31,144 bases of DNA, taken from a virus. Below the pieces are notes generated by a model. It did no database searches. It worked only from the letters and a program-made list of their open reading frames with translations, and was not told the DNA's origin. The stretch spans positions 1-31,144 of IMG/VR virus record IMGVR_UViG_3300025669_000135, one strand, 5' to 3'. This document shows, in pieces, positions 4,353 through 28,524 of this stretch (position 1 is the first letter of the stretch; each line of letters opens with the position of its first letter). Both the position numbers and the translations under genes were made by a program.

Positions 4353-4658
4353 TTATGCTTGTGAGTACATGTGATAAAAGTCATGGATGTCGGTAATATT
4401 GGGAACTTCAAGCGTCATACCTGCTTTTATATCTACTAAAGGACTTAGTACATCATTTATTAAACATAGTAACCACCAAAAATACTCTGTTCCATACATC
4501 TTCCAAGATATTACATCTGGACATCTTAAGTCTGATTGAATTACTGTATAATAACTTGGTTGTCTTTTCATTACAAATTTACTTAAATTATTATTTAAAA
4601 AATCACACTCATCTACATTATCTATTGCTACTGTTTTATAGAAATCAAGTCTATTCAT
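4353..4658 (-). CDS. Baseplate wedge protein, T4 gp53-like
   Basis: The 101-residue product matches the pattern of T4 gp53-type wedge proteins: a Tyr-Tyr-Thr-Val-Ile segment, then DLRCPDVISWKMYGTEYFWW (about 43-62), Leu/Ile-rich LLCLINDVLSP (63-73), and a C-terminal IKAGMTLEVPNITDI strand reminiscent of a LysM-like motif. In T4, gp53 joins wedges around the hub. T4 gp53 is longer (about 196 residues), so this is a short form. The ATG at 4658 overlaps the TAA of the upstream fusion gene (TAATG), with a weak AAAGG before it, indicating coupling. Clustering with gp25-, J- and gpI-like genes supports the call. Confidence 0.7.
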   Translation of the reverse strand: MNRLDFYKTVAIDNVDECDFLNNNLSKFVMKRQPSYYTVIQSDLRCPDVISWKMYGTEYFWWLLCLINDVLSPLVDIKAGMTLEVPNITDIHDFYHMYSQA

Positions 4659-6739
4659 TACTTGTATACCTTTACTTTTATCTTTAATACTGTCCCATCT
4701 ATTTTATCTAAATAAGGTAATGTAGCAAATAACATTGGAGTTGTTCCATTAAATAAGCCTAACTCTGTAATGTTATTTTGAGCTATTGCACTAGCTATCT
4801 CAAAGCTGTATAGATAATAAGTTCCTTGATCTGATATGTTAGAAGTTGTGATTGTTCCATTTAATACCTCTGTTTCTAAATCATCCCAAGATTGACTTGG
4901 TGGTATACCAACATGACCAGTTCCTAACTTCCATTTATTTATATCAGAATAACCTGCTATATTATATCCACCATACTCTATGTTATTATATGGATTTACA
5001 TTGTACTCTCCCTCATCTGATGTCTCTGAAGTAAATGTCCAATCATCTGCTATTACAGTTGCTACTCCAGAATCTGTAATTGTATATACAACATGGTCTC
5101 CATAAGTCATAGCTTCTAATATTAAAGAAATATGAAATACATTATTAGCTGGTCTATCTTGCTCTAATATATCTGTTAAATCACTTAATCTTTCAGATTC
5201 CATTAGGTGATAATCACTACCTACTTTATACTTATTTAAGTTTACATCAATAGTTAGATGAGGAGATTTATAATAGCCACTCTTATAAGATGTAACTTCT
5301 GGAGCTACTAACTTAAATGTACTGTAATTATTTGTCCACATATCATATACTGTTCCTGACATTCCTGCTAAGTATAATGCTATGTTTATAGATTTATATA
5401 ATCCTTTTTCTTTATACCAATCTATTGCCCATTTTAATTGTTTTCTTAATTCCTCATCATTATCTCTTGGAAAGTTTAATCCTTCAAATCCTATAAATTC
5501 TGATAAATATCTTACATATTCTACTGGAGCACTATCAATATTAGATAATAATCCAAAATCATCTATCTTTGAATATATCTCATTATATAATTCACTACAA
5601 GTATCTATGTAATCTACTATTCTTTGATTTTCATCTCCCTCTACAAACTTTCTAGGTAATAGCAATTTTAAATCGACAAAAGAAATATAACCTAAATACT
5701 TAGAAGCTGTAGCATAAAAAGTTTGGGTAGCTATGTCTATGTAATCTGCTCTTTCTACTGCTGAACTCATAGAACTTACTACTGTAATACCAACCTCTTC
5801 TATTATTGGAGAATAACCATTATAAGGTATTTTATTATACTGCCATTCATTATAGTGAAATCCTATTGGCTTATCTGTAACTAAACGATCATTTCCTGAA
5901 CCTGTATCTTTTATTTCTACTACAATATTGACTGATATATCATCACTTCCTGCACCTGAGTCTGTTACTACTATTGGTGTTGGAGGTACATCACCAAGAA
6001 AAGTAGGATAACTAACTCCTTCATCTATTGACCATATTGTAGTGAAATCCCAATTAGTAAAAGTCGCTTCTTGATACATCTGCGCTGTGGTTTTTCCTGT
6101 GCCACCATCACTTGTGGCGCTTCCTGATGTTTCTGTATCCCAGAAGCAGTCATTATATGTGCCACCACCTTGTGCAGCTAAGCCTCCAGTAACGGAAGCA
6201 CCCGTAGTTCCTATAGAATAAATATTTGTTGCTATTCCTACATTAACTCCAAATGCTCCTCCTGCGGTACCTGTACCAATTACAGCTCCTGTGGAAAAGC
6301 CATCTGTTATTATACCAGCATTATACCCTAATAATCCCCCAGCCTGCCCAACTGCAGTTATAAAACCAGTAGTATAGGCGTTTGTTATTGTACCATCTGA
6401 GCGCCCAGCTAATATACCCCCATCCTCATTACTAGATGTTATATCAGCATTTATTAAGCCAATATTTTTAACTTCAGCAGCAACACCAATATAACCAAAC
6501 AAACCTACTCTATCACCACTACTACTATCTATAAACAAACTCGTTATTGTATGCTCGTCTCCGTCAAAAATTCCTGAAAATTTATTGATACGATTTCCAA
6601 TGGGTATAAATCCAGCACCAGCATTCCAACCAGTTGTAGCAGAAGCGTCTATATCATTTGCTAGATAATAACTACCAGCAAGGTCATTCTCCATTGCTTG
6701 AAGTTCAGTTACATTTGTTATTGCTGTTCCAACAGGCAT
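4658..6739 (-). CDS. Baseplate protein: GLUG beta-helix fused to gpI-like tail domain
   Basis: A 693-residue composite. Residues ~1-250 are a GLUG-type repeat region (GLFGYIG, GGLLGYN, GGAFGVN, GGLAAQG) ending in the CFWDTETSGSA...GTGKTTAQM...YPTF block known from bacterial secreted adhesins. Residues ~250-290 are a linker with two DSG/DTG-G-D repeats. Residues ~350-540 resemble the P2 gpI/T4-type tail protein: DYIDTCSELYNEIYSKID, EYVRYLSEFIGFEG, LRKQLKWAIDWYKEKGLYKS. The C-terminus (about 645-693) has ITELGLFNG and ATLPYLDK, as in phage fibre-base proteins. An AGGAG SD fixes the ATG at 6739. GC over 6061-6360, inside the GLUG part, is about 46% by hand count against about 28% in the gpI part sampled, suggesting captured DNA. 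A role as a baseplate arm carrying an adhesive domain is inferred. Confidence 0.7.
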   Translation of the reverse strand: MPVGTAITNVTELQAMENDLAGSYYLANDIDASATTGWNAGAGFIPIGNRINKFSGIFDGDEHTITSLFIDSSSGDRVGLFGYIGVAAEVKNIGLINADITSSNEDGGILAGRSDGTITNAYTTGFITAVGQAGGLLGYNAGIITDGFSTGAVIGTGTAGGAFGVNVGIATNIYSIGTTGASVTGGLAAQGGGTYNDCFWDTETSGSATSDGGTGKTTAQMYQEATFTNWDFTTIWSIDEGVSYPTFLGDVPPTPIVVTDSGAGSDDISVNIVVEIKDTGSGNDRLVTDKPIGFHYNEWQYNKIPYNGYSPIIEEVGITVVSSMSSAVERADYIDIATQTFYATASKYLGYISFVDLKLLLPRKFVEGDENQRIVDYIDTCSELYNEIYSKIDDFGLLSNIDSAPVEYVRYLSEFIGFEGLNFPRDNDEELRKQLKWAIDWYKEKGLYKSINIALYLAGMSGTVYDMWTNNYSTFKLVAPEVTSYKSGYYKSPHLTIDVNLNKYKVGSDYHLMESERLSDLTDILEQDRPANNVFHISLILEAMTYGDHVVYTITDSGVATVIADDWTFTSETSDEGEYNVNPYNNIEYGGYNIAGYSDINKWKLGTGHVGIPPSQSWDDLETEVLNGTITTSNISDQGTYYLYSFEIASAIAQNNITELGLFNGTTPMLFATLPYLDKIDGTVLKIKVKVYK

Positions 6740-6751
6740 TGTTTATATCTC

Positions 6752-7246
6752 CTATTGCATTGTTATTTTAGTTGATAATGTAAATGTAGCTCCATCTGAT
6801 AGTGTTCTTTCTCTTGCTAATGAAAAATAGCAAACTAACTTACCTGTATCATCTGAGGTAGTAGCTAAATAAGCTGTATCGAATGGACCAATACTTCCTC
6901 CAGAAGCTGTATAAACAACTTGTTTAGATGATATTGTCCAATCTCCACTCACTTGTGCTAGTGTTGGGAAGTCTGTTATTCCTACACTTAATGATTTTGA
7001 TTCATATCCATTTCCTGAAGGCTCTCCTGATACTGTTGCTAAAGTACTTGATTCTGTTAGATTTCCTTCACATAATCTTAAATAGAATGTACTTGGTATG
7101 TCTACTCCTTGAAAATATGTTTGTAAAAAACTATACTCTCCTTCATCTGCTAAATGATTTCTTCCTTCTTCTGTCCATAAAACCTTACCATTTTTATCCT
7201 TAGCTTCAAGAGTCCAAATAGCTTTAAACCAATCATGCTTTCTCAT
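6752..7246 (-). CDS. Probable tail/baseplate-associated structural protein
   Basis: A 164-residue protein starting MRKHDWFKAIWTLEAKDKNG, then KVLWTEEGRNHLADEGEYSF and FYLRLCEGNL (about 56-65). I associate this 'W...a.d..G.v....gkN.l.deGe....yf.G...P..fYlrL' pattern with uncharacterised phage tail proteins next to baseplate genes, from memory only. The C-terminal half is strand-rich and Thr/Ser-rich, consistent with a beta-sandwich. AAGGGG precedes the ATG at 7246. Its position between the J-like wedge and the GLUG/gpI fusion suggests a baseplate-peripheral or fibre-connector role. No catalytic motif is visible. Confidence 0.5.
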   Translation of the reverse strand: MRKHDWFKAIWTLEAKDKNGKVLWTEEGRNHLADEGEYSFLQTYFQGVDIPSTFYLRLCEGNLTESSTLATVSGEPSGNGYESKSLSVGITDFPTLAQVSGDWTISSKQVVYTASGGSIGPFDTAYLATTSDDTGKLVCYFSLARERTLSDGATFTLSTKITMQ

Positions 7247-7256
7247 ATTTTACCCC

Positions 7257-8945
7257 TTATAAACTGATATAACTTGTTGATACTTCTGTCTCATATAATT
7301 TTAATGCCTCATTTTTATCTGTTACTAAATCACCATTCTCGTCTTGTTGATATCTACAATAGTAAACTGCTCCTGAAGTAACTCCACTAACTACAGTTCC
7401 ACTAAAAGTAAGAGCTCCTGTAGAGTAATTTACACTACCTACAACTTGACCACTTCCACTTCCTCCAGAATCTATTAAATTTCCAAGACCATCATCACTT
7501 GCCATCAATGTATCATTACTATCATATATTCTTACTGTACTTACTTTTACAGTAGTTAGATCTAAAGTAGCTATATATGAACCACTTTGTAATGTTAAAT
7601 CTTTTCTTATATCAAATACTATATAATGATAGCTAACTCCAGCTAAACTATCTATACTTTTTACTACATCAGAATGTCTTATATCTGTTCCTAATGTATC
7701 TCTTCCTAAAGCAAAAGTAGTAGCTAACTGTGTATTTACTAAGGCTGTTACTGTATTTAATACTGCACTTCTTTCTGCATAAATTGTAACTACAGGAACT
7801 ATATTAACTATTGTAGGATCTACATAAGATAATCTAACTGTAACTGTTTTATAATCAGCAAGATAAATAGTAGTATCAGATTCATATTCAGTATCTGGAA
7901 TTTCCCATTCTTGTAAAATCATACATATTTTTACTACATTATACATATCTTGGTTAGGAGAATCTTCTTCTTGTTCTCCCCACACTATTGCACTTTCTAC
8001 TTTTGACCTTAATAACAATAAGGCTTTGTAATCTGCTTTTGTTACCGCTCTATCTCCTGTTGCAAATACTCTAGGAGCATTATATTTTATATCATCTATA
8101 CTCTCTTCATTTTCTCCACCTAATACACTAGAAGCATTTGTTACAGTTAATGTTACTGCATCCCCATCTGCATCCACTAGGCTGGATATTATTTCAGTTA
8201 TTACTGCAGAAGCTGTTACATTTCCATTCTCTCCATCAGATTCTATATAACTAAATGTAATTGTTTTTCCTACTTCTGGGACTTTTCCAAACTTACTATC
8301 TCCAAAAGTAATTCTTATACCACCATCAAATAGAAAGTTCTCAGTATATACAGTGTCTGACGCTCCATAATTTACAAATGAACTCACTTTAGTCCAAGCA
8401 ACACTATCAACTGATACTGCTAAACTTGTATTCTCTACCTTTAAACTTGTTATCTTATATACTGCGTCTATTGTTCCAGGAGATACCCAAGTTTCTACTA
8501 TTCTTTTTCCTTGAACTATTCCTGCATCTATTGATGTATCTCCAGCTTTTAATGTTACGTCACTTGTTGTAATATATTCGTAATCTGCACCCTTAATTCT
8601 AGTATAAGCAGGTATTGGAATATCTAGAGTGTGAGCAGAAGCTATTGTAAATGTTACTGTTCCAGTAGAAGATATTGTTCTTGTAGCATTATAGTTAAGT
8701 AAAGAAACTAAATTCTCTACACTACTTCTTACTTTAGCTGTTGGTAGATAATTTTCCTCAGCTCTTCTTTCTAAATAATATTGATTCATTTCCATAGCAT
8801 ACGCAAACATCTCTAATAATGTTTTACCAGTACCAGATTCATATAAATCAGTCCAAGTATCTTTTGTTGCTATTATATTCTGTAGTTGAACTACCATAGA
8901 ATCAAAATCATAATTTGTGTAATTCAAAATATTACTACTACCCAT
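7257..8945 (-). CDS. Baseplate wedge protein, baseplate J / T4 gp6-like
   Basis: A 562-residue protein of the baseplate J/gp47/gp6 group, which forms the ring of wedges around the hub. The N-terminus has the characteristic helical entry: TGKTLLEMFAYAMEMNQYYL (about 39-58), ERRAEENYLPTAKVRSSV, then LLNYNATRTISSTGTV, equivalent to the 'G.....A.G.....f' region of the family. The middle is beta-rich with GENGNVTASAV (about 235-245) and the family-typical GGENEESIDDIKYNAPRVFA followed by RAVTKADYKALLL (about 298-310). The C-terminus is more variable. AGGAG precedes the ATG at 8945. It is longer than P2 gpJ (about 302 residues) and close to T4 gp6 (about 660). It lies directly downstream of gp25, as in many myoviruses. 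Confidence 0.88.
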   Translation of the reverse strand: MGSSNILNYTNYDFDSMVVQLQNIIATKDTWTDLYESGTGKTLLEMFAYAMEMNQYYLERRAEENYLPTAKVRSSVENLVSLLNYNATRTISSTGTVTFTIASAHTLDIPIPAYTRIKGADYEYITTSDVTLKAGDTSIDAGIVQGKRIVETWVSPGTIDAVYKITSLKVENTSLAVSVDSVAWTKVSSFVNYGASDTVYTENFLFDGGIRITFGDSKFGKVPEVGKTITFSYIESDGENGNVTASAVITEIISSLVDADGDAVTLTVTNASSVLGGENEESIDDIKYNAPRVFATGDRAVTKADYKALLLLRSKVESAIVWGEQEEDSPNQDMYNVVKICMILQEWEIPDTEYESDTTIYLADYKTVTVRLSYVDPTIVNIVPVVTIYAERSAVLNTVTALVNTQLATTFALGRDTLGTDIRHSDVVKSIDSLAGVSYHYIVFDIRKDLTLQSGSYIATLDLTTVKVSTVRIYDSNDTLMASDDGLGNLIDSGGSGSGQVVGSVNYSTGALTFSGTVVSGVTSGAVYYCRYQQDENGDLVTDKNEALKLYETEVSTSYISL

Positions 8946-9041: not shown

Positions 9042-9425
9042 CTAACTCTCTGGAACTATCTGCCTACTGTATTGAAAATCACCAACCCCAGAGATTCTAA
9101 ATATTATTGATAATGCATATACACCATTATCATAATCAGGAACTGCTACTAATGAAAGTATCTCAGGTCTATCATCCCAAGTGTTTATTGCATCTTTTAT
9201 TTCCATATCTAATCTTTGTGCCATATCATCTGACATAGGTTCAAATAATAAAGATTGAATAGCTCCTCCAAAACTGCGAAGCATACAACGCTCTCCTTTG
9301 TTAGTTCCTAATATATTATCTATACTAGTCATTACAGCTTCTGCATCTTTTACTATCTTTATATTCTTTTTACTGTTTAATCCTAAATGTTGATCTAATT
9401 CAGAATAAGCTACAAATCTTGACAT
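9042..9425 (-). CDS. Baseplate wedge protein, T4 gp25-like
   Basis: The 127-residue product has the signature of the gp25 family: GERCMLRSFGGAIQSLLFEP (about 44-63), where family members carry 'GeR.mrp.fG..l...lFep', followed by a helix with AQRLDMEIKDAINTWDDRPE and strands ending in FRISG. gp25 homologues belong to the conserved wedge core of all contractile injection systems and interact with gp6/J, encoded immediately downstream here. Length is typical (T4 gp25 132 residues). AAGGAG lies ten bases before the ATG at 9425. The family was once described as lysozyme-like, but its role is structural. Confidence 0.9.
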   Translation of the reverse strand: MSRFVAYSELDQHLGLNSKKNIKIVKDAEAVMTSIDNILGTNKGERCMLRSFGGAIQSLLFEPMSDDMAQRLDMEIKDAINTWDDRPEILSLVAVPDYDNGVYALSIIFRISGVGDFQYSRQIVPES

Positions 9426-9944: not shown

Positions 9945-10673
9945 CTATGGATTTAAGCTTATTTCACTACCTTTTATAATAAGTTTACCAGTAACATCAA
10001 TGGTAGCATCTCCAGTAACTGTTACCGACCAGTCTCCACCTATTGATTTTGTACTATCCTTTGTTATAGTGCCTACTTCAGATACCTCTATAGTAAGCTC
10101 TTTATTACCACTTATAGTAACTTTTTTATCGTTTTTTATTACTTCTACTTTATCATTATTTATTGTTTCATTCTTATCATTAGTTATTACTTCTATCTTA
10201 TCATTTCCGATAGTAGAAGTTTTATCATTACCTATTACTTCTGTTTTATCATTAGGAATGGTTATATCCTCATTACCTAAAGTGTCATTGAGTATAAATT
10301 GTATTCCACCTTTTGTTCTTAGTATTTTTACTCCTGTCTCAAAACTATTATGCTTAGTAACAGGATTTGCAGCTTCTCCCATATAGATAGGTTTAAGAAT
10401 ATCTCCACCTTCAAACATAAACCATAACTGACTACCTACATCTGGAACTACCCACCAACCTACTTGATCTTGACTTCCTCCACCTAATAAAGGATAACAA
10501 GGAATAGCCCATGGTAAATCTGCATCTTTAAGATTTACAGCGTCTCCCATCATTGGATATATTCTTGCTTTCAATCTAAGAGCATTATCTGTATCAGAAA
10601 TGCTTACTACTGTTCCTCTATATAGTCCAGAGAAGTGATTTTTCCTAATATGCATATCTTGTAATACGTTCAT
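9945..10673 (-). CDS. Central spike protein, gp5/gpV-like, with octapeptide beta-helix
   Basis: A 242-residue spike. Residues ~15-100 form the OB-fold of gp5/VgrG/gpV spikes: LYRGTVVSISDTDN, RLKARIYPMM, LPWAIPCYPLLGGG, then GWWVVPDVGSQLWFMFEGGD (72-91), the family-typical 'vP.vG..v.v.Fe.gd' motif. Residues 141-196 are seven consecutive octads (NDKTEVIG and variants, ending GNKELTIE), followed by a continuing strand region to about 235. In T4 gp5 octapeptide repeats wind into a triple-stranded beta-helix needle, so the same is expected here. No lysozyme domain is inserted, unlike T4. The ATG at 10673 overlaps the hub gene stop (ATGA), and the PAAR gene follows 10 bases after. Confidence 0.87.
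   Translation of the reverse strand: MNVLQDMHIRKNHFSGLYRGTVVSISDTDNALRLKARIYPMMGDAVNLKDADLPWAIPCYPLLGGGSQDQVGWWVVPDVGSQLWFMFEGGDILKPIYMGEAANPVTKHNSFETGVKILRTKGGIQFILNDTLGNEDITIPNDKTEVIGNDKTSTIGNDKIEVITNDKNETINNDKVEVIKNDKKVTISGNKELTIEVSEVGTITKDSTKSIGGDWSVTVTGDATIDVTGKLIIKGSEISLNP
10086..10253 (-). repeat. Seven tandem 24-base units encoding spike octapeptides
   Basis: Each 24-base unit encodes Asn-Asp-Lys plus five residues with beta-branched residues alternating; the last unit begins Gly-Asn-Lys. The DNA units are diverged at third positions, so selection is on the protein repeat rather than recent DNA duplication. Confidence 0.8.
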
Positions 10674-17532: not shown

Positions 17533-19092
17533 TTATGCATTCCTAGAAATTATTTCTTCAAAACTCGCTCCTGTTTTAGTAATTATTGTTCTAAGCTTGA
17601 TAAACTCTGCTGCCTTAACTGGTTTCAAGTAAATATCAACCCATAACTCATTACCATCCATTCTCTGTGCTGTATTGTTACTAGCGTCACATACTATTCT
17701 GTAATCATACAATCCTCTTCTTGATTTTATATCTCTCAAATAATTATCTACCATATCCGTAATTCTGAATCTAGTAAGCTCATCATTTGGTTCAAACACA
17801 AAATACTTAAGAGCTATCGTAATAGATTTTTCAAGTACTATTAATAATCTTCTTACAGCTACTCTATCTAATGCGGATGCTTTAGATTGTAGTGTCTTTT
17901 GTCCCCAAACTACTACACCTTCTCCAGTAAATGATTGTATTGGATTTATGCCTGCTTCATATAGAGTATCTCTCTCACCTGAAGTAAATACCTTAGATAC
18001 ACCTAGTACATTCAATACACCTCTATTCATACCAGCAGGTGCAAACCACGCCTCTGATACACTGTCTGTATATGCAAGTACTCCTGCAATAGCACCAGAT
18101 GTTGGAACTGTTGTTTCTTCTTTATCATTATACTGGTCATATATCTTTAATAATGGTGAATATAACGCTGCATAATTTGTGTTAGCATTTAAATCAGTTT
18201 CTCTGTAAGTAACCATGTCTGTAACAGATGTCTTATCAGAAGGCATATCCAGTATGGCTATACAATCTTTTCTAGCTTCTGCTACTGCAATCATCTTATT
18301 TTGTACTGCTGTTGACGAATATCCTGCATTTATCATTATGTTTATGTCAACTTCATCAGGATTACTAAATAAATCCCACCCTGTGTTAACTATCCCAGAA
18401 GTAGCTGCAACTCCGTCATCTCCTCCATCTAAAACTAATGCTGTTTCTTGCATTTTTGGTCTTGTAGTATCTGCAACATCCGTATTATCTACTACATAAA
18501 TATAACTTGATCTTAGATTAACCATATCTTCTATGTATTCTGATTTTCCAAAATCATCTTGTTGCTGTATTCTAGAAACTGTCCAAGACTCTACTTCTGT
18601 ACCAGAATAATAAACAGTTATAAGAAATGTTTCATCAACAATCATTGCTGCAGTTTCGGTTATTTTTATAGAAATATTATCATTATAATCCCCTGGACCA
18701 TATCCAAATATATCAAATAGAATTGTCTCTCCTGATATACTTCCTAATGTTCTAGTTGATACTCCTGCAGAGAATGCTTGATTTGTTCCTGCATCTCCCT
18801 CTATATGAACTCCACCATATAAAGCTCCATTTACTACTCTATCTACATACAATTTATTACCTTTTTCAAGATAACCTAAAGCACAATACTGACTATCATT
18901 ACCCTCTTCAACTTTTTCATTTAAACAAAATGTCTCTATAAATTGTTGATTAGACGTAATTAAAACTCTTTCATCAATTTTTCCCTTTTTAGCCTCTATT
19001 ATAATTGCTCCAATAGACGTTGCTACTGAAGGAACTATCTCAGAAAGATCCAACTCTTGACTAAATACACCTGGCGATAACATGAAACCCAT
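17533..19092 (-). CDS. Tail sheath protein
   Basis: A 519-residue contractile sheath subunit. N-terminus MLSPGVFSQELDLSEIVPSV (4-23) is the typical 'PGV...E.d.s..v..v.ts..a.vg' linker strand used to knit sheath subunits. The middle contains ALVLDGGDDG and VDINIMINAGYSS (about 250-262), as in sheath insertion domains. The C-terminal third has the family hallmarks: VAYTDSVSEAWFAPAG-like region (about 336-351), NPIQSFTGEGVVVWGQKTLQ (about 381-400) and RVAVRRLLIVLEKSITIALK (about 408-427). It ends with the conserved C-terminal strand. It is shorter than T4 gp18 (659) and near many environmental myovirus sheaths. A strong AAGGAGG precedes the ATG at 19092, fitting high expression. Confidence 0.93.
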   Translation of the reverse strand: MGFMLSPGVFSQELDLSEIVPSVATSIGAIIIEAKKGKIDERVLITSNQQFIETFCLNEKVEEGNDSQYCALGYLEKGNKLYVDRVVNGALYGGVHIEGDAGTNQAFSAGVSTRTLGSISGETILFDIFGYGPGDYNDNISIKITETAAMIVDETFLITVYYSGTEVESWTVSRIQQQDDFGKSEYIEDMVNLRSSYIYVVDNTDVADTTRPKMQETALVLDGGDDGVAATSGIVNTGWDLFSNPDEVDINIMINAGYSSTAVQNKMIAVAEARKDCIAILDMPSDKTSVTDMVTYRETDLNANTNYAALYSPLLKIYDQYNDKEETTVPTSGAIAGVLAYTDSVSEAWFAPAGMNRGVLNVLGVSKVFTSGERDTLYEAGINPIQSFTGEGVVVWGQKTLQSKASALDRVAVRRLLIVLEKSITIALKYFVFEPNDELTRFRITDMVDNYLRDIKSRRGLYDYRIVCDASNNTAQRMDGNELWVDIYLKPVKAAEFIKLRTIITKTGASFEEIISRNA

Positions 19093-21572: not shown

Positions 21573-21868
21573 TTTTTAACCTTTATTTCACTGAATTTCA
21601 ACAAGTCAATACCTAACTTTCTAGCTGTACTTTGATTTAAAATAACCATATCACACCAGACTGTTCCTCTCCTAAATATTTCCCAGCACCATCTTAATCT
21701 TTCTTTCCAACCTAGTATTCCGCTACTGTCAAAACCTAACTTAAAAAACGCTACATCTATATATTGTGTTCCTATACTATCCGTAGAAGTCTTATCTTCA
21801 TAATCATGGCTAATAGTAATATTACCAGAAGCACAATCACAGTAATAACTTTTCTTCCAAATTTTCAT
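21569..21868 (-). CDS. Small unknown protein
   Basis: 99 residues, starting MKIWKKSYYCDCASGNITIS with Cys10 and Cys12. The centre is aromatic and basic, LGWKERLRWCWEIFRRGTVW (about 52-71), and is followed by CDMVILNQSTARKLGIDLLK. The strand-helix-strand ending in 'dmviLn...a..L...L' is a pattern I associate with small uncharacterised phage proteins. AGGGG precedes the ATG at 21868, which overlaps the stop of the homing endonuclease gene as ATGA. It overlaps the next gene as well. Function unknown. Confidence 0.55.
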   Translation of the reverse strand: MKIWKKSYYCDCASGNITISHDYEDKTSTDSIGTQYIDVAFFKLGFDSSGILGWKERLRWCWEIFRRGTVWCDMVILNQSTARKLGIDLLKFSEIKVKK

Positions 21869-22794
21869 GTGTGTGATACCCCTGTTACAAAATTAGCGAT
21901 TCTATTCTGTAACTCTTCTATATTAGACAACTCATGCTCCCAAATTATAAGACAATCCCAATTATTTTTCTTATATATGTCTAACTTTAGTTTATCTTTT
22001 TGTCTTATGCTTTCTACCGACACTCCTCCATTTATTTCTGTTATACCGTTCAGTTTACAAAATTCTTTATTGGCATGCCAATAATCTCCTTGATGTTCAA
22101 TAATCTTTTTGTCTTTTAGATTTACTATATCTGGCTTCTTATTTTCTAATGTTAGATATTCTCCTTTTATATTTAATAACCAACTACCTGGAGATAGCTT
22201 GTCTACCATATTGAATAATAATTTCTCTGGTCCATTTGGTTCTTTGGTAATACCAGCCGCCATAGCCTTTAATTGATTATTTCTATACTCTGGATCCTCC
22301 CACAATTTTTTAGAATTGTCACTTTTTACTTCTTGAGTTATATTTTTTAAATTATGTCCATGAATATACTGTTTGTCCGATGTTACTTTGCATATAAATG
22401 TTTTATTACAACCACATAGACATGTTCGGGTCTCTCTTGGAATTGTATTACTTTTAGCTCTCTTATCTATTGTTTCTTGAGACCATTTAATATCCTTAGT
22501 ATGATGATGAGATAAAAATCTTTGATCTGAAGTTACTTTACATATGAACGTTCCTCCACATCCACATTCACATACTCTTGTTTCTATTAAAATTCGTCTA
22601 CTATATCCCTGCTTAGCTACTCTTTTATCTGTTTTAGCGGTTAATCCTTTATTCCAAGACGTACCTCCTTTTTTATTTTTATTCCAAGCTACTTGAACAC
22701 CTTTCTTATCCTTATTCCAAGGAGTACATCCTTTCTTAGATTCACTGTTTATTTTGTTACACTTAGCTGTCCTAATATATACACCTTTTGGCAT
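21865..22794 (-). CDS. Homing endonuclease with zinc motifs and Vsr-like nuclease domain
   Basis: 309 residues. Residues 1-65 contain three W-N-K-x-K/L repeats (TPWNKD, VAWNKN, TSWNKG) resembling NUMOD3-type DNA-binding modules of homing endonucleases. Residues 75-98 and 125-148 are two copies of a C-x-C-G-C ... TFICKVTSD ... H motif, probable zinc ribbons. The C-terminal ~120 residues look like a PD-(D/E)XK/Vsr fold: GPEKLLFNMVDKL, KKPDIVNL (Pro221-Asp222), IIEHQGDYWH (231-240), SVESIRQKDKLKLD and a final LIIWEHEL. This matches the free-standing EDxHD/Vsr-like homing nucleases of phages. It has its own AAGGA SD and couples to the next gene by ATGA, so it is well settled in the late operon. 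Target site unknown. Confidence 0.75.
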   Translation of the reverse strand: MPKGVYIRTAKCNKINSESKKGCTPWNKDKKGVQVAWNKNKKGGTSWNKGLTAKTDKRVAKQGYSRRILIETRVCECGCGGTFICKVTSDQRFLSHHHTKDIKWSQETIDKRAKSNTIPRETRTCLCGCNKTFICKVTSDKQYIHGHNLKNITQEVKSDNSKKLWEDPEYRNNQLKAMAAGITKEPNGPEKLLFNMVDKLSPGSWLLNIKGEYLTLENKKPDIVNLKDKKIIEHQGDYWHANKEFCKLNGITEINGGVSVESIRQKDKLKLDIYKKNNWDCLIIWEHELSNIEELQNRIANFVTGVSHT

Positions 22795-22809: not shown

Positions 22810-23337
22810 TTATGTTCTTGATATACCTGTTTTGTCAGCTTGCAACATTGCTGATGCCAACTCATTCCTATAAAAAGGTAGTATTTGAAGTGCTCTAATA
22901 AGATGCTTACAACCTACTCCCTGCTTTCTAGGATTTCTTATCTTTGGTGACCTTGGTTCTTTTCTACCCCACTTTGCACCCTCTTTAGATAATAAATAAG
23001 CACCACCCCAATACAAATTTGCTGGACAATTACAATCTACACTTATATCTCCTTTTAAAATAGCGTCTGCTCTTTGATTATAGTTTAAGCTAGTGTCATT
23101 TCTATATTTTTGATAGTCTAATAATTTTATATGTTGAATATATTTCTTTCCGTTCTTAGAATAGAATTCAGAAGGAGTTTCAAATACAAATGTACCTTCT
23201 CTTTCATGGAATCTTTTTAATTTAGTTCCACTTAACCTTTTTGCTCTATCTCTAGGTTGTGTCTTAAGAGTACTTACAGGTTCCTTAGATTTTCTTAATA
23301 GATCCTTATTTGTTAATTCAAAAATTCTTTTCAACAC
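22810..23337 (-). CDS. SWIM-type zinc-finger protein
   Basis: 175 residues. The N-terminal 50 are strongly basic. Residues 100-145 hold a SWIM-like signature: DCNCPANLYWGG (Cys102, Cys104), a 38-residue spacer with Lys/Arg/Pro, and GVGCKHL (Cys143, His145), i.e. CxC...CxH. SWIM fingers bind DNA or proteins. A long basic insertion between the two halves is unusual but typical of phage versions I recall. The start is GTG at 23337, overlapping the TAG of the sugar dehydrogenase gene (TAGTG) with GAGG upstream. Whether it belongs with the virion genes or the sugar cassette is unclear. Confidence 0.6.
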   Translation of the reverse strand: MLKRIFELTNKDLLRKSKEPVSTLKTQPRDRAKRLSGTKLKRFHEREGTFVFETPSEFYSKNGKKYIQHIKLLDYQKYRNDTSLNYNQRADAILKGDISVDCNCPANLYWGGAYLLSKEGAKWGRKEPRSPKIRNPRKQGVGCKHLIRALQILPFYRNELASAMLQADKTGISRT

Positions 23338-24278
23338 TATATATTTACCTCTGTTCCATTTAGTTTAAGTGACAATTGAATAGCTCCTAATACATTTACA
23401 CAATCTATTCCTCTTTCAAGAGCCCATATATCTATAACACCATCCTCTATAGCATCAATAAATTCAAAACACTCTCTTACTAATGCATTATTAGGCTCTA
23501 CATCAACAACTCCACCATGCTGTAATACGATAGGAGATATTGTGTTAGTGTCATCAAACATTAATGAGTTTTTACTTCCTATAATATCTATTGTTCTTAT
23601 TTTTCTAGGATATAACCAGCCACAATGTATCTTTACAATTACTCTATTAGGGTAAGTTAGCTGGATAAAACAGACATCCTCTACTTTTTTTGATACATAA
23701 TTCATACCTTTTGCAGATACGCTTACAGGAATATCATCAAATATATAATTAAATATGGAAACTTCATGCAATGCTAGATCCCAGGATGCTCCTACATCTT
23801 TTCTTACTGGACCATCATTTGTTCTTTGAGAATAAGCATAATAAATATCGCCTAATTTCTTAGCTCTTATAATGTCTTTAATCTCAGCTATTGAATTGCT
23901 ATATTCAAAGATCTGCCCAACCATTAATACTTTACGTTCATACTTTGCTCTTTCTCTTAACTCTTTTGCTTCTTCTAAATTAGTTGTAAGAGGTTTTTCT
24001 ACTAATACATGTTTGTTATAAGCTAGTGCTGTCTTACATAGTTCAAAATGAGTAGTAGCAGGAGTAGCTATTATTACCGCTTCTATGCTAGTATCATACC
24101 AAATATGGTCTAAATTAGTAGTTGTTTCAATATCTAAATCAGGAAATTTCTCTCTAACAATATCTAATTTATTAGTGTCCCTATCACAGACTACTTCTAT
24201 ACTAGATCCTTCTATTTCATTAACTGTTTTAATATAGTTTGGACCCCAATAACCACAACCTATTAAACCAAGCTTCAT
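23337..24278 (-). CDS. Gfo/Idh/MocA sugar dehydrogenase, WbpB/WlbA-like
   Basis: 313 residues, the usual length for WbpB/WlbA (about 316). Rossmann signature GLIGCGYWG (4-12), nucleotide-specifying Asp32 after the second strand, ATPATTHFEL (71-80), and the family hallmark VEKPLTT with Glu94-Lys95-Pro96. The active-site helix ASWDLALHEVSIFNY (164-178) places His171 where these enzymes bind substrate, after a GPVRKDVG loop. WbpB/WlbA oxidises C3 of UDP-N-acetylglucosaminuronic acid with NAD, giving the 3-keto sugar. The aminotransferase and acetyltransferase that use this product are encoded directly upstream. TAATG coupling to the acetyltransferase. Exact substrate is inferred from the three-gene set. 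Confidence 0.82.
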   Translation of the reverse strand: MKLGLIGCGYWGPNYIKTVNEIEGSSIEVVCDRDTNKLDIVREKFPDLDIETTTNLDHIWYDTSIEAVIIATPATTHFELCKTALAYNKHVLVEKPLTTNLEEAKELRERAKYERKVLMVGQIFEYSNSIAEIKDIIRAKKLGDIYYAYSQRTNDGPVRKDVGASWDLALHEVSIFNYIFDDIPVSVSAKGMNYVSKKVEDVCFIQLTYPNRVIVKIHCGWLYPRKIRTIDIIGSKNSLMFDDTNTISPIVLQHGGVVDVEPNNALVRECFEFIDAIEDGVIDIWALERGIDCVNVLGAIQLSLKLNGTEVNI

Positions 24279-24757
24279 TATACTGCTTCCTTATTCATAT
24301 CTCTTGCAGGAACACCTATTACTGTTACATTATCAGGAACATCATGCGTAACTACCGCTCCAGCTCCTATAATCGCTTTCTTACCTATTGTTATACCACC
24401 TAGAATAGTAGCTCCACTACCAATCGTAGCTCCCTCTTTTACTAATACAGGTAATAATCTCCATGTTTTATTTAGTATCTTTTCTACAGTAGGATTGTTA
24501 TCGTTTATAAACACTACTCCATGTCCGATAAATACTTCATCTTCAATAGTTACACCTTCACAAATAAATGTATGTGATTGTATATGACATTTTTTACCTA
24601 TCTTTACACATCTTTGAATCTCTACAAAAGTACCTATTACAGTATCATCATCAATTTGACATCCATATATATTAACAAAATCAAAGATTTTAACATTATG
24701 TCCAACTATTGCATTTATAATAGTTTGTTTTGAGTTATTTATATCTAACACTCTCAT
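24278..24757 (-). CDS. Hexapeptide-repeat N-acetyltransferase, WbpD/WlbB-like
   Basis: 159 residues with left-handed beta-helix hexads throughout: AIVGHNVKIFDFVNI, CQIDDDTVIG, VKIGKKCHIQ, VTIEDEVFIGHGVVF, then GATIGSGATILGG, ITIGKKAIIGAGAVVTHDVP and a closing VIGVPARDM. The arrangement, including the NDNNPT loop after the third coil and the GVPA end, fits WbpD/WlbB and QdtC/FdtC-type enzymes that acetylate a C3 amino group on a nucleotide sugar with acetyl-CoA. Partner enzymes on either side are the dehydrogenase and aminotransferase. The ATG at 24757 overlaps the upstream stop as ATGA. SD is weak, so coupled translation is expected. Confidence 0.82.
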   Translation of the reverse strand: MRVLDINNSKQTIINAIVGHNVKIFDFVNIYGCQIDDDTVIGTFVEIQRCVKIGKKCHIQSHTFICEGVTIEDEVFIGHGVVFINDNNPTVEKILNKTWRLLPVLVKEGATIGSGATILGGITIGKKAIIGAGAVVTHDVPDNVTVIGVPARDMNKEAV

Positions 24758-25869
24758 CTATAAAACTCTTTTATTTTATTAGTTACCCTATCTATCTCTT
24801 CATCTTTTAACATAGGGCACATTGGAATACTTATTATGTCATCTGCTATACTCTCTGCTACTGGAAAGCTACCCTTCTTGTAGCCTAAATCTTTATAAGT
24901 ATCTTGTAAATGTAGTGGAACAGGGTAATGTATTCCACACTGTATCTCACTTGCATCTAGAAACTTTAATAATTTATTTCTTTTTTTTGCTTTTAATACA
25001 TAAAGATGAAATACATGATAATTTCTTATCTCTGGAGTTATTACCTCATCAACATCTTTTAATAACTCGTTGTATAAGTTAGCTATTTTTAATCTTCTAT
25101 CATTCCACTTATCTAAATGTCTTAGCTTAACTCTTAATACAGAAGCTTGTATAGTATCTAATCTCATGTTGTATCCTTCACCAACATGCTCATATTTTAC
25201 TTTTTGTCCATAATTTCGTAACATTAATAACTGTCTATATGTATCCTCATCATCTGTGGTTATCATACCACCGTCACCGAAGCCACCAAGATTCTTTCCA
25301 GGATAAAAACTAAAGCAACCACATTTTCCTATACTTCCTACTTTCTTATTTAATCCTAAACACCAAGATCCATGAGCCTGAGCACAATCTTCTATAATTG
25401 ATAATTTATACTTATTCGCTATCTCTATTATCTTTGTACTACAGCCTTGCCCATATAAATGAACAGGAATAACTATGTTGGAGGCTACATCATTACAAGC
25501 CTCTTCAAACTTAATTGGATCCATCTGATACATACCATCTTCAATGTCTACAAAATGTATCTTTCCTCCCACTCTCTTTACTGCTAGTGCTGTAGCTGTA
25601 AATGTATTTACAGGTAATATTACATTGCCTAAAGAAATACTACCTACCATCCTAAAATCTAATACCTTTAGAGCAAGAAATAATGCATCAGTTCCAGAAG
25701 ATACTCCTACTGCATACTTTGTACCTATATACTCTGCAAACTCTTTCTCAAATAACTCTACCTCTTCTCCTAGTATATAATCTGTCCTATCTATATACTT
25801 AAATAAAGACTCTTGTAGCTCTTCTCTGATTGAATCATTTAAAGCTAATAAATTAACAAATTGTATCAC
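24754..25869 (-). CDS. DegT/DnrJ/EryC1 PLP aminotransferase, WbpE/WlbC-like
   Basis: 371 residues, the family length. SSGTDALFLALKVL (57-70) binds the cofactor phosphate, PVNTFTATALAV (86-97) and VDIEDGMYQMDP (107-118) are family motifs, EDCAQAHGS (160-168) holds the Asp161 that contacts the pyridine N, and SFYPGKNLGGFGDGG (187-201) contains the PLP Lys192. HYPVPLHLQ near 314 is the C-terminal hallmark. Such enzymes transfer an amino group to a keto nucleotide sugar, here most likely the 3-keto product of the dehydrogenase. The start is GTG at 25869, with AGGG ahead and overlapping the previous stop (GTGA). Substrate choice rests on context. Confidence 0.88.
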   Translation of the reverse strand: MIQFVNLLALNDSIREELQESLFKYIDRTDYILGEEVELFEKEFAEYIGTKYAVGVSSGTDALFLALKVLDFRMVGSISLGNVILPVNTFTATALAVKRVGGKIHFVDIEDGMYQMDPIKFEEACNDVASNIVIPVHLYGQGCSTKIIEIANKYKLSIIEDCAQAHGSWCLGLNKKVGSIGKCGCFSFYPGKNLGGFGDGGMITTDDEDTYRQLLMLRNYGQKVKYEHVGEGYNMRLDTIQASVLRVKLRHLDKWNDRRLKIANLYNELLKDVDEVITPEIRNYHVFHLYVLKAKKRNKLLKFLDASEIQCGIHYPVPLHLQDTYKDLGYKKGSFPVAESIADDIISIPMCPMLKDEEIDRVTNKIKEFYR

Positions 25870-26771
25870 AGATTTTCCCTAACTTTGTTTAGAATATTCT
25901 TAGCCATTGCTTTTGGTGTAAGCCACTTCTTATAATAATCTAAACCATTTCTCGCTATTTGTTTTCTTTCTTCATCATGCTCTAAATAGTAATTTACTGT
26001 CTCTACTAAATCAGATAAATCTCTTTTTATGGTTATTTGGCAATACTTTTTATAATATTCAGTGTCTTTAGGTACTAAATAATCCATATCTACATTTAAT
26101 AAACAACTGCCCATACCCAATACTTCTGTATCCCTCCAACACCAATCATCTTTACCACCAACTCCAGGTAAAGATATGCAAATTTTACTCTTACTTTGTT
26201 TTTTTAAATGGTCACTAAATGATAGTTTCTTAATCAGTAATTCTTTAGGTATGTCAGGTCTGTTTCTAAAAAAGCATAGCCCACTAAAAGTATTCCAATT
26301 AATTTGTTTCTTTATTATCTCAACACAGTGTTTTCTTAAATCATAATTAGTTGCTCTAAATACACCTACTACATCATAATCCATCTTATCTTCTTCTATA
26401 TTATTTCTTAATTCTGGTAATACTTTAAAATAATCCATAGAAGAATTTGTTTGTCCAATAGGATATACATTTTTATACTTTATTGGATAATCTTTATGAC
26501 ACATTATCTTAAAATATAAATCACCATCACTCATTATATCTGTATGAATAGGTAAGAAGTCGCAAAAGTCATACCAAATTCTAGTTTTCTTTCCGTCTAT
26601 ATCTATGTCTATTGCTAATACAGTAAATCCAGTTATATAATGAGATTGTTTTCCTAACTCTCTTGATATTGTAACCTCACCTAATTCTTTGAATCCAGAA
26701 AGTAAATAATGATACCAAACACTATTAGGATTATTAAATACAGACGTATCAGGATATTGTATTTTTATCAT
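25866..26771 (-). CDS. Glycosyltransferase, group 1 type (copy A)
   Basis: 301 residues. The C-terminal half fits GT-B family 1 donors: SDHLKKQSKSKICISLPG, WCWRDTEVLGMGSCLLNVDM with a Glu in the E-x(n)-G-x-x-L region, then DLSDLVETVNYYLEHDEERK and the closing RNGLDYYKKWLTPKAMAKNI typical of the CgeB-like/Glyco_trans_1_2 group. The N-terminal part (about 1-150) carries WYDFCDFLPI and PIGQTNSS. It is a clear paralogue of the next gene upstream, sharing long blocks such as DLSDL, YYL.HDEER and SPKAM/TPKAM. The ATG overlaps the stop of that gene (ATGA) without an SD. Acceptor and sugar are unknown; the adjacent pathway suggests a diacetamido-uronic acid. Confidence 0.72.
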   Translation of the reverse strand: MIKIQYPDTSVFNNPNSVWYHYLLSGFKELGEVTISRELGKQSHYITGFTVLAIDIDIDGKKTRIWYDFCDFLPIHTDIMSDGDLYFKIMCHKDYPIKYKNVYPIGQTNSSMDYFKVLPELRNNIEEDKMDYDVVGVFRATNYDLRKHCVEIIKKQINWNTFSGLCFFRNRPDIPKELLIKKLSFSDHLKKQSKSKICISLPGVGGKDDWCWRDTEVLGMGSCLLNVDMDYLVPKDTEYYKKYCQITIKRDLSDLVETVNYYLEHDEERKQIARNGLDYYKKWLTPKAMAKNILNKVRENL

Positions 26772-27631
26772 AGTTTATTTAATATATTATTAACCATAGC
26801 TTTTGGGCTCAACCACTTCTCGTAATACTCTAAGCCACTTCTAGCTATACTTTCTCTTTCTTCGTCATGACTTAAGTAGTAATCTACTTTCTCTTCCATA
26901 TCGGATAAGTCTCTTTTAAGAATAATTGCAGATCCTTCTAAACTGCTTGGCATTCTTGCTTCTAATTCTGGTAGTATTAAACAATTACCAGTACCTAATA
27001 TCTCAGTTATCCGTCCATTTATACCAAATCTATTTCCAACACCGTGTATTGCTAAACATAATTTACTTTTACATTGCTTCATTAAATGTTCAGTATATGA
27101 TAAGCCAGTACTTAATAATTCTTTAGGAACTTTCGGTCTATTACTTGTCTGTTCTAACCAAGCTAATGACTTCCAATCTTTTCTACTTCTTATTATTTCT
27201 ACTGCTTTCTTTCTAGTATCATAATTAGTAGTTCTAAACACCCCTGTAATGTCATAATCATATTTCTTTTGATATTTAAGTTTTCTTCTAACAGTTAAAT
27301 CTTTAAAATAACTACTTCTTGATGACCCTAACCCTATAGGAAACATATTTACTGTCTCTTTTACTACATCATCATAGTATTGGACTTTAAAGTATAAATC
27401 ATTATCATTCATTATACTTGGGCATATTGGAGCAAAATCACTAAAATCATACCAAACTCTTCTACTATAAATATCTATGGGTATAAGCGTTTTACCTGTA
27501 ATAAAAAAACAATCTTTAAGTAGCTTATCAGTTTGAACTACCTCATCTGCTACTTCTTTGAATCCTTTTAAAAGATATTGATACCAACTTGATCTAGATA
27601 ATTGAGAACTAACAGGTAATACTACACGCAT
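26768..27631 (-). CDS. Glycosyltransferase, group 1 type (copy B)
   Basis: Paralogue of copy A. I choose the ATG at 27631 (MRVVLPVSSQL), which aligns with the start of copy A and has an AAAGGA SD; an earlier in-frame ATG at 27646 lacks one. From that start it has 287 residues. Shared blocks include WYQYLLKGFKE, WYDFSDFAPI, DYDITGVFRTTNYDTRKKAV, a TEHLMKQCKSKLCLAIHGVG segment and the C-terminal RSGLEYYEKWLSPKAM. In the donor-binding region copy A has GKDDWCWRDTEVLG and copy B FGINGRITEILG, so specificity probably differs. It overlaps the methyltransferase stop by ten bases. Two related transferases could add successive sugars; inference. Confidence 0.72.
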   Translation of the reverse strand: MRVVLPVSSQLSRSSWYQYLLKGFKEVADEVVQTDKLLKDCFFITGKTLIPIDIYSRRVWYDFSDFAPICPSIMNDNDLYFKVQYYDDVVKETVNMFPIGLGSSRSSYFKDLTVRRKLKYQKKYDYDITGVFRTTNYDTRKKAVEIIRSRKDWKSLAWLEQTSNRPKVPKELLSTGLSYTEHLMKQCKSKLCLAIHGVGNRFGINGRITEILGTGNCLILPELEARMPSSLEGSAIILKRDLSDMEEKVDYYLSHDEERESIARSGLEYYEKWLSPKAMVNNILNKL

Positions 27632-28524
27632 GATATTCCTTTGCATTGATATATCTTTCTAGTTCCTCTTACATTATGTTTATATGTTAACAAAGCTTTT
27701 CCATCTACTAGTTTATCTATTTCTTCTTCTGTCATAGTGTTTCCAAACATAGGTGGTAGTATTAATTCTACAAATAAAGTTTCCCTTGCTCTACTTTTTA
27801 ACTTATCAATAGTTACCTTTAAGTTTTTATAACTAGGATCTGGTTGATGATGAACACTTAAATAAGTTATTACATCATATGTTTCACCATGGTCTACTTT
27901 TCTAAAATTAACATCCGACATCTCTATACTATCATTTACTATAATAGCATTACCTCTTGAACAATCATTTGGTTCAAAACCAATTACATAAGCTCCTGCT
28001 TGAGACATCTTCATAGAATGATAACCTTGATGACATCCTATGTCTAATACAGATTTACCACTCCAATCTATTATGTTTATTTCGTCCCAGCTCTTTTGAC
28101 TATCTGCATAAGCATTAGGTAACCAATCATATGTTTGAAACCAATGCTGTTGCATTGTCCAGCTTTTTATTTGAGCTTCAGTCCATCTTTTTAAAACAGT
28201 AACTTCCAACTTACCTTCTTTAAAGCTTTCTGGAAACTTTCTCTTACTTAATAATTCTAAGATTCTTGGATTCTGTTTACTATCAGCCCATCTTACAGCC
28301 CAACCATATCTGTAATCGTCTCCTTTTTTAACTTTTACTAACCAATGTTTTCTCTTTGGAAATCTCTTATGAGCAACTTCCATAACGGGCTTGAAATTCT
28401 CTACTGAATTAATATTTTTTATATAGATATTAAAAGTTCCATACATTCTACAATTAAAAACATCTGAGTATACTTCGTCCATCTTGTGAGCATTTCCTAT
28501 ACCCCTAACAAAAGTACCTTGCAT
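27622..28524 (-). CDS. SAM-dependent methyltransferase with extra N-terminal domain
   Basis: 300 residues. The C-terminal part is a class I methyltransferase: motif I SVLDIGCHQGYHSMKM (158-173), acidic residue in GFEPN (182-186), and motif IV region YDVITYLSVHHQPDP (216-230), with HH in the position used by many small-molecule or sugar methylases. The first ~115 residues are a separate domain: TFVRGIGNAHKMDEVYSDVF and YGTFNIYIK resemble, loosely, the DUF120/riboflavin-kinase-like fold. The linker around WTMQQHWFQTYDWLPNAYAD is aromatic. It opens the sugar cassette, with AGGAG before the ATG at 28524. It may O-methylate the transferred sugar, but lipid or nucleoside substrates cannot be excluded. 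Confidence 0.72.
   Translation of the reverse strand: MQGTFVRGIGNAHKMDEVYSDVFNCRMYGTFNIYIKNINSVENFKPVMEVAHKRFPKRKHWLVKVKKGDDYRYGWAVRWADSKQNPRILELLSKRKFPESFKEGKLEVTVLKRWTEAQIKSWTMQQHWFQTYDWLPNAYADSQKSWDEINIIDWSGKSVLDIGCHQGYHSMKMSQAGAYVIGFEPNDCSRGNAIIVNDSIEMSDVNFRKVDHGETYDVITYLSVHHQPDPSYKNLKVTIDKLKSRARETLFVELILPPMFGNTMTEEEIDKLVDGKALLTYKHNVRGTRKIYQCKGISCV

Follow-up and report, generated by a model that had tools for sequence, protein, structure and literature searches.

Phages carry promiscuous extracellular domains on or near their structural proteins, and Ig-like, BACON and PKD domains serve as such virion decoration (PMC13370021). The receptor-binding and baseplate proteins of phages have likewise been described as domain mosaics, with recent shuffling in tail and baseplate proteins that involves pectin-lyase-like and Ig-like domains among others (PMC10684548). 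In Pa193, the baseplate holds six triplexes, each formed by the wedge protein gp46 with two copies of gp45, and gp46 bears the fibre attachment loop (PMC11042391). Two protein families are closest to the locus studied here. The first is GLUG (PF07581) together with the Peptidase_M26_N solenoid, represented by structure 3n6z and by the IgA1 proteases 6xja and 7uvl; the second is Tail_P2_I with gpI of P2, the equivalent of T4 gp7. We analysed a virus record of 31,144 bases (the window, i.e. the whole stretch of DNA under study), in which a single intact frame of 693 codons at 4658-6739 on the minus strand combines the two.

The locus resembles each of these systems and differs from each. Its N-terminal part shares the solenoid fold and profile homology with GLUG and Peptidase_M26_N, and, in common with the GLUG relatives, it has repeats of GG-L-G...NCY type and a CFWDTETSG / GTGKTTAQM cap. 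However, its repeats are too degenerate for the direct Pfam Glug call that members of PF07581 receive, and unlike 3n6z and the IgA1 proteases it comes without a peptidase domain and is fused to a phage wedge protein. The remainder is like P2 gpI in its position after a J-like gene, its helical core and the Tail_P2_I match found in most orthologues, and the gp25 - J - I order of the gpI wedge family within the tail module is also present in the window. Compared with P2 gpI, however, the protein is divergent and adds a fibre-base-like C-terminal beta domain as well as the N-terminal solenoid. As in Ig-like decoration, GLUG acts here as a promiscuous domain, missing from orthologues and present in unrelated proteins, and relatives of the window phage use Ig, LamG and Kelch at the same site; in the window, by contrast, a GLUG solenoid and not an Ig fold is placed in frame on a core wedge subunit. 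The locus also shares shuffling within a baseplate protein with the mosaicism mentioned above, though the domains named in the available part of that article do not include GLUG (PMC10684548). We consider the fusion a clear new example of a known practice, in which virions are decorated by domains taken from elsewhere, and not a system of a new type. Less expected are the carrier, a core wedge subunit, and the domain itself, as the literature searched yielded no account of GLUG either in structural proteins of phages or as a phage decoration domain.

The fusion gene in its tail module

The genes of the tail module, all on the minus strand, are listed below with the start signal of the fusion gene.

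4353..4658, minus strand: gp53-like wedge protein (weak match)
4658..6739, minus strand: fusion gene for GLUG beta-solenoid, linker and gpI-like wedge protein (693 aa, one open frame)
6749..6753, minus strand: Shine-Dalgarno AGGAG, 9 nt upstream of the ATG at 6739
6752..7246, minus strand: small fibre-base-like protein (Pfam Gp80, weak; orthologue L009:9689-10177, 39%)
7257..8945, minus strand: gpJ/gp6-like baseplate wedge protein (phrog_219, 4e-64)
9042..9425, minus strand: gp25/gpW-like wedge protein (domain/family match)
9945-10673, minus strand: hub-like protein
17533-19092, minus strand: sheath (phrog_23, 3e-100)

The order gp25, J-like, Gp80-like, fusion gene and gp53-like is retained in L009, which is syntenic with this tail module and in which GLUG is missing. 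The AGGAG of the fusion gene has a spacing that resembles that at many other genes of the window. The first-pass annotation had named a start further downstream, with the GLUG part left untranslated, as an outcome that would overturn its reading. Such a start was ruled out, because no in-frame ATG or GTG with a Shine-Dalgarno sequence occurs near the ancestral N-terminus; in-frame ATG and GTG codons are absent altogether between residues 221 and 324. The intact frame, its own Shine-Dalgarno sequence and the lack of an alternative start near the ancestral one thus indicate that the GLUG and tail parts are made as one protein.

The exact GLUG-gpI fusion was present in one contig only, and no second example was retrieved with the tail part by single-sequence or alignment searches. 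A unique fusion on a single uncultured contig could reflect metagenomic assembly, with an unrelated GLUG gene joined to a tail gene. This explanation is very improbable, since it needs a false join at each border, one of which would have to preserve the frame, while both flanks belong to one tail module that is syntenic with L009. It is further opposed by the intact frame, by a GC content at third codon positions (GC3) that is still low (19%), and by the extensions tolerated at the same place in relatives. A 15-nt direct repeat (93%) at 5849-5863 and 6036-6050, close to where the GLUG part ends and the old N-terminus lies, was considered as microhomology at the join and dropped; about 0.2 such repeats are expected by chance (rough estimate), and the two copies lie in different reading frames.

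Two other regions of the window were noted by eye. Genes at 23337-28524 read like sugar-nucleotide, aminotransferase, acetyltransferase and glycosyltransferase genes and may relate to modification of surface sugars by the phage, and an ORF at 21865-22794 with repeated CECGCGGTFICKVTSDQRF-type units looks homing-endonuclease-like.

Domains of the fusion protein

The fusion protein was divided into the following parts.

5999..6739, minus strand: GLUG / M26-N-type beta-solenoid domain, residues 1-247 (homology, repeat model, predicted fold)
6110..6508, minus strand: about five GLUG-like repeats of 26 residues, residues ~78-210 (strand periodicity of the predicted model, repeat model)
6032..6148, minus strand: C-terminal cap CFWDTETSG...GTGKTTAQM...WDFTTIW, residues 198-236 (conserved in L002, L003, L004 and others)
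5870..5998, minus strand: linker of low predicted order with two DSGxG-type repeats, residues ~248-290 (low pLDDT, sequence)
4661..5869, minus strand: gpI-like wedge protein, residues 291-693 (orthologous to L009:10177-11436 and others)
5306..5557, minus strand: Tail_P2_I match, residues 395-478 (weak alone; orthologue rows match)
4661..4945, minus strand: C-terminal fibre-base-like beta domain, residues ~599-693 (pLDDT ~77-93; conserved LGTG...ELGLF...FP.IDK columns)

The initial description of residues 1-250 as GLUG-like agrees with homology, repeat model and predicted fold. The closest full-length match is a GLUG protein of another virus contig, L002, with 54% identity to these residues. 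Pfam Glug (PF07581, cut-off 20.5 bits) did not match the window protein, but it matched L002 at 4e-13 and 15 of the 17 aligned rows. A repeat model built from the other loci scored the window protein at 27.5 bits (E 6e-8), against 7.9 bits for the best of 500 shuffles; its strongest units were residues 134-158 and 185-209. The CFWDTE...GTGKTTAQM block, also singled out in the first-pass annotation, was found to be common to the relatives. By homology in sequence, the N-terminal domain is therefore GLUG-related without being a Pfam Glug member. In addition, phrog_30905 matches residues 5-137 of the fusion protein (1.1e-9).

The GLUG and tail halves were modelled separately, as a joint MAFFT alignment of both row sets misaligned the tail half. 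With 17 rows, AlphaFold2 predicted a confident beta-solenoid (mean pLDDT 87.5, pTM 0.82) that ends near residue 247. The best match of this model among solved structures was 3n6z, of IgA1-protease type (Foldseek E 5e-7, TM 0.68, probability 1.00), and the sequence profile of the GLUG part also retrieved 3n6z (1.4e-23) and IgA1 proteases (~1e-12), whereas a PDB sequence search with the single protein gave chance-level matches only. This fold match, together with a weak Peptidase_M26_N match to the fusion protein (E 0.004, below the cut-off), raises the question of a remnant M26-family protease with a retained proteolytic role. We regard that as the least credible of the explanations considered: no match to a catalytic peptidase (M26) domain was obtained in the fusion protein, and the GLUG unit occurs in many proteins that have no peptidase match.

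As to the linker repeats, no ORF in the retrieved loci had three or more matches to the DSGxG pattern used. When the window protein was aligned with 19 orthologues, it matched through their short N-terminal stretch and placed the ancestral N-terminus at about residue 285-290. Residues 353-693 align to L009:10177-11436 (26%, 2e-29), which is without GLUG, and identity of the tail part to GLUG-less orthologues is 25-32%. On the window protein alone, Tail_P2_I reached 15-17 bits (E 0.007-0.02), under the cut-off of 20.6; among the aligned gpI-like rows it matched 18 of 20 (best 1.8e-7), in agreement with the gpI-like assignment made initially. The gpI-like core is divergent and was modelled with modest confidence (pLDDT 63), while the last 90 residues were modelled well and form a beta domain that we take to be fibre-base-like from knowledge of the family. 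The best fold matches of the tail part, all at low TM, came from HFTV1, P1 and a contractile injection system of Streptomyces, in each case from a chain of the baseplate or tail.

Gain and origin of the GLUG domain

A step in GC content within the gene had been read as a sign of capture. The underlying counts were correct, with 45.7% GC at 6061-6360 (residues 127-226) and 25.7-28% around 5100-5700; overall, residues 1-250 have 40.0% GC and residues 251-693 have 30.1%. However, the values expected for the two parts from their amino-acid composition and the codon use of the window are 37.7% and 30.7%, so about 7 of the 10 points of the step are due to composition. The step was consequently dropped as proof of foreign origin and replaced by a leave-one-out codon test with amino-acid composition removed. 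The residual GC excess of the GLUG part is nevertheless real (GC z +3.3; GC3 18.8% versus 13.1% expected). In the codon test, codons 1-250 were the most deviant of the 58 blocks of the window (z -4.15; GC3 z +3.05), whereas the most deviant block of any other gene reached z -2.2.

For comparison with orthologues, an alignment of the J protein yielded 80 related contigs, and an iterated profile of the tail part gave 63 hits, corresponding to 61 contigs after the duplicate loci of L009's contig were merged. GLUG was present in none of the orthologous gpI-like genes of these 61 other contigs, a set that includes near-identical records and some loci cut by contig ends. An N-terminal domain shared by all relatives, which would have undermined the earlier reading, was thus not what the comparison returned. 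Because GLUG is absent from all orthologues and its codon use is deviant, gain on the lineage of the window phage is supported by the sequences. In the J tree the branch leading to the window is long, and the phylogeny therefore gives no age for the fusion.

To place the domain among its relatives, we used a scan of 84,980 genomes, which identified 16 GLUG relatives in archaea and bacteria, mostly in MAGs, and the 39 GLUG loci found in virus contigs. In a 52-row tree the window groups with the viral L002 and two archaeal MAG sequences, with support of 89/91, below the starred level. Virus and cell rows are mixed in this tree, with at least three changes forced.

GLUG also occurs in several unrelated phage gene contexts. 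In L005:2774-6787 (phrog_31, 4e-104) and L108:1337-4288 it is inserted within a central tail fibre J-like protein, and it lies in or beside phrog_376 tail proteins in L133, L007 and L139. In L007:5755-7370 and L139:5779-7503, the GLUG protein opens with 54 residues that share 49% and 62% identity, respectively, with the N-terminus of the product of the adjoining phrog_376 gene; from its sequence, this stretch reads as a duplicated docking segment that carries the GLUG domain. L111, L112, L118 and L126 are small phage-like elements in which a major-head-type gene (in L112 phrog_1328, 1e-51) is preceded, at a distance of a few genes, by the gene for a GLUG protein of ~410 aa, and L112 and L126 have, by eye, an integrase-like ORF at one end. 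None of the other GLUG loci, some of which are short fragments, contained a gpI-, J- or Gp80-like gene, and for this reason GLUG appears, judging by gene content, to have entered different phage backgrounds separately.

The first-pass annotation had proposed capture of a cellular adhesin. Gain by the lineage holds, whereas the cellular donor is conjectural, because GLUG is also at home in a number of phage gene neighbourhoods unrelated to one another, and the tree does not separate virus copies from those of cells; either a phage or a cell may have supplied the domain. Origin from another phage, with GLUG already circulating as a phage-decoration domain, has in our estimate close to an even chance and is compatible with our preferred reading of the protein, since it concerns origin only. 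It is favoured by the viral closest full-length match (L002, 54%) and by the GLUG copies within J (L005, L108), behind or in the phrog_376 tail protein (L007, L139, L133) and adjoining head genes (L111-L130), while the two archaeal MAG sequences in the window's own tree group (89/91) and the mixture of virus and cell rows speak against it.

An accessory site beside the wedge gene and a proposed role

Among relatives with a Gp80-like gene, some have nothing between it and the gpI-like gene, and the others have one to three accessory genes there (131-896 aa), which often overlap the gpI-like start by one base. An Ig domain was detected in 16 of the 18 slot proteins scanned (one weak), and several add LamG, Kelch, DUF4082 or F5/8-C-like modules. 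Slots of this kind were seen at L013, L015, L016, L019, L021, L022, L023, L027, L030, L031, L032, L034, L035, L037, L043 and L045. L049 has an in-frame fusion of an Ig domain to the front of its gpI-like part. Given the Ig, LamG and Kelch modules in the slot of the relatives, the site of GLUG in the window corresponds to their accessory-module site.

Our preferred reading, to which we assign a probability of about 0.7, is that the fusion protein is a gpI-like (T4 gp7-equivalent) wedge subunit of an uncultured contractile-tailed phage, with an acquired N-terminal accessory adhesion module, predicted to serve reversible surface tethering; its location in the virion, copy number, ligand and benefit are what we infer. 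The GLUG beta-solenoid would have been joined before the old start codon through a flexible linker, at the position taken in relatives by a separate upstream gene with Ig, lectin-like or propeller domains or, in one case, by an in-frame Ig fusion. The gpI-like C-terminal part, which we presume from its family and the Pa193 structure to sit in the baseplate wedge, would assemble with two J-like subunits into each of the six wedges, and six GLUG solenoids per baseplate would project on flexible linkers. These may make weak, reversible contacts with glycans or proteins in the envelope of the host or in its matrix, and such tethering would raise residence time ahead of engagement by the dedicated fibres.

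The GLUG of IgA1 proteases is not a stand-alone adhesin, which counts against an adhesive role. Alternatively, the solenoid might have no adhesive role and be structural, as a spacer or collar that lends the baseplate stability or sets the direction of the fibres. Beta-solenoids make good rigid spacers, and fusion to a fibre-anchoring wedge subunit (compare Pa193 gp46; PMC11042391) would suit a scaffold. We nevertheless judge this role unlikely: the long linker of low predicted order argues against rigidity, the orthologues manage without GLUG, and the unrelated Ig, lectin and propeller modules in the slot of relatives fit binding better than a shared structure. Binding through an accessory adhesion module thus remains our preferred reading.

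More broadly, and as a tentative proposal with rather less than even odds, the site before the gpI-like wedge gene may, in a group of uncultured contractile-tailed phages, be set aside for the exchange of accessory adhesion modules. Cassettes of Ig, LamG, Kelch or discoidin-like type would be swapped there as a neighbour gene, often overlapping the wedge start, and the window phage would have locked GLUG onto the wedge itself. The same proposal makes GLUG a previously undescribed general phage decoration domain, spread along three routes: N-terminal fusion, insertion into the central tail fibre J, and attachment to a duplicate of the docking segment of the neighbouring tail protein. The fusion would place a GLUG solenoid on a core baseplate subunit instead of on a fibre, and the exchange slot next to the wedge gene offers a place to look for phage adhesion modules. 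Finally, the duplicated docking segments of L007 and L139 suggest that domains may be attached to the tail without altering the original subunit.
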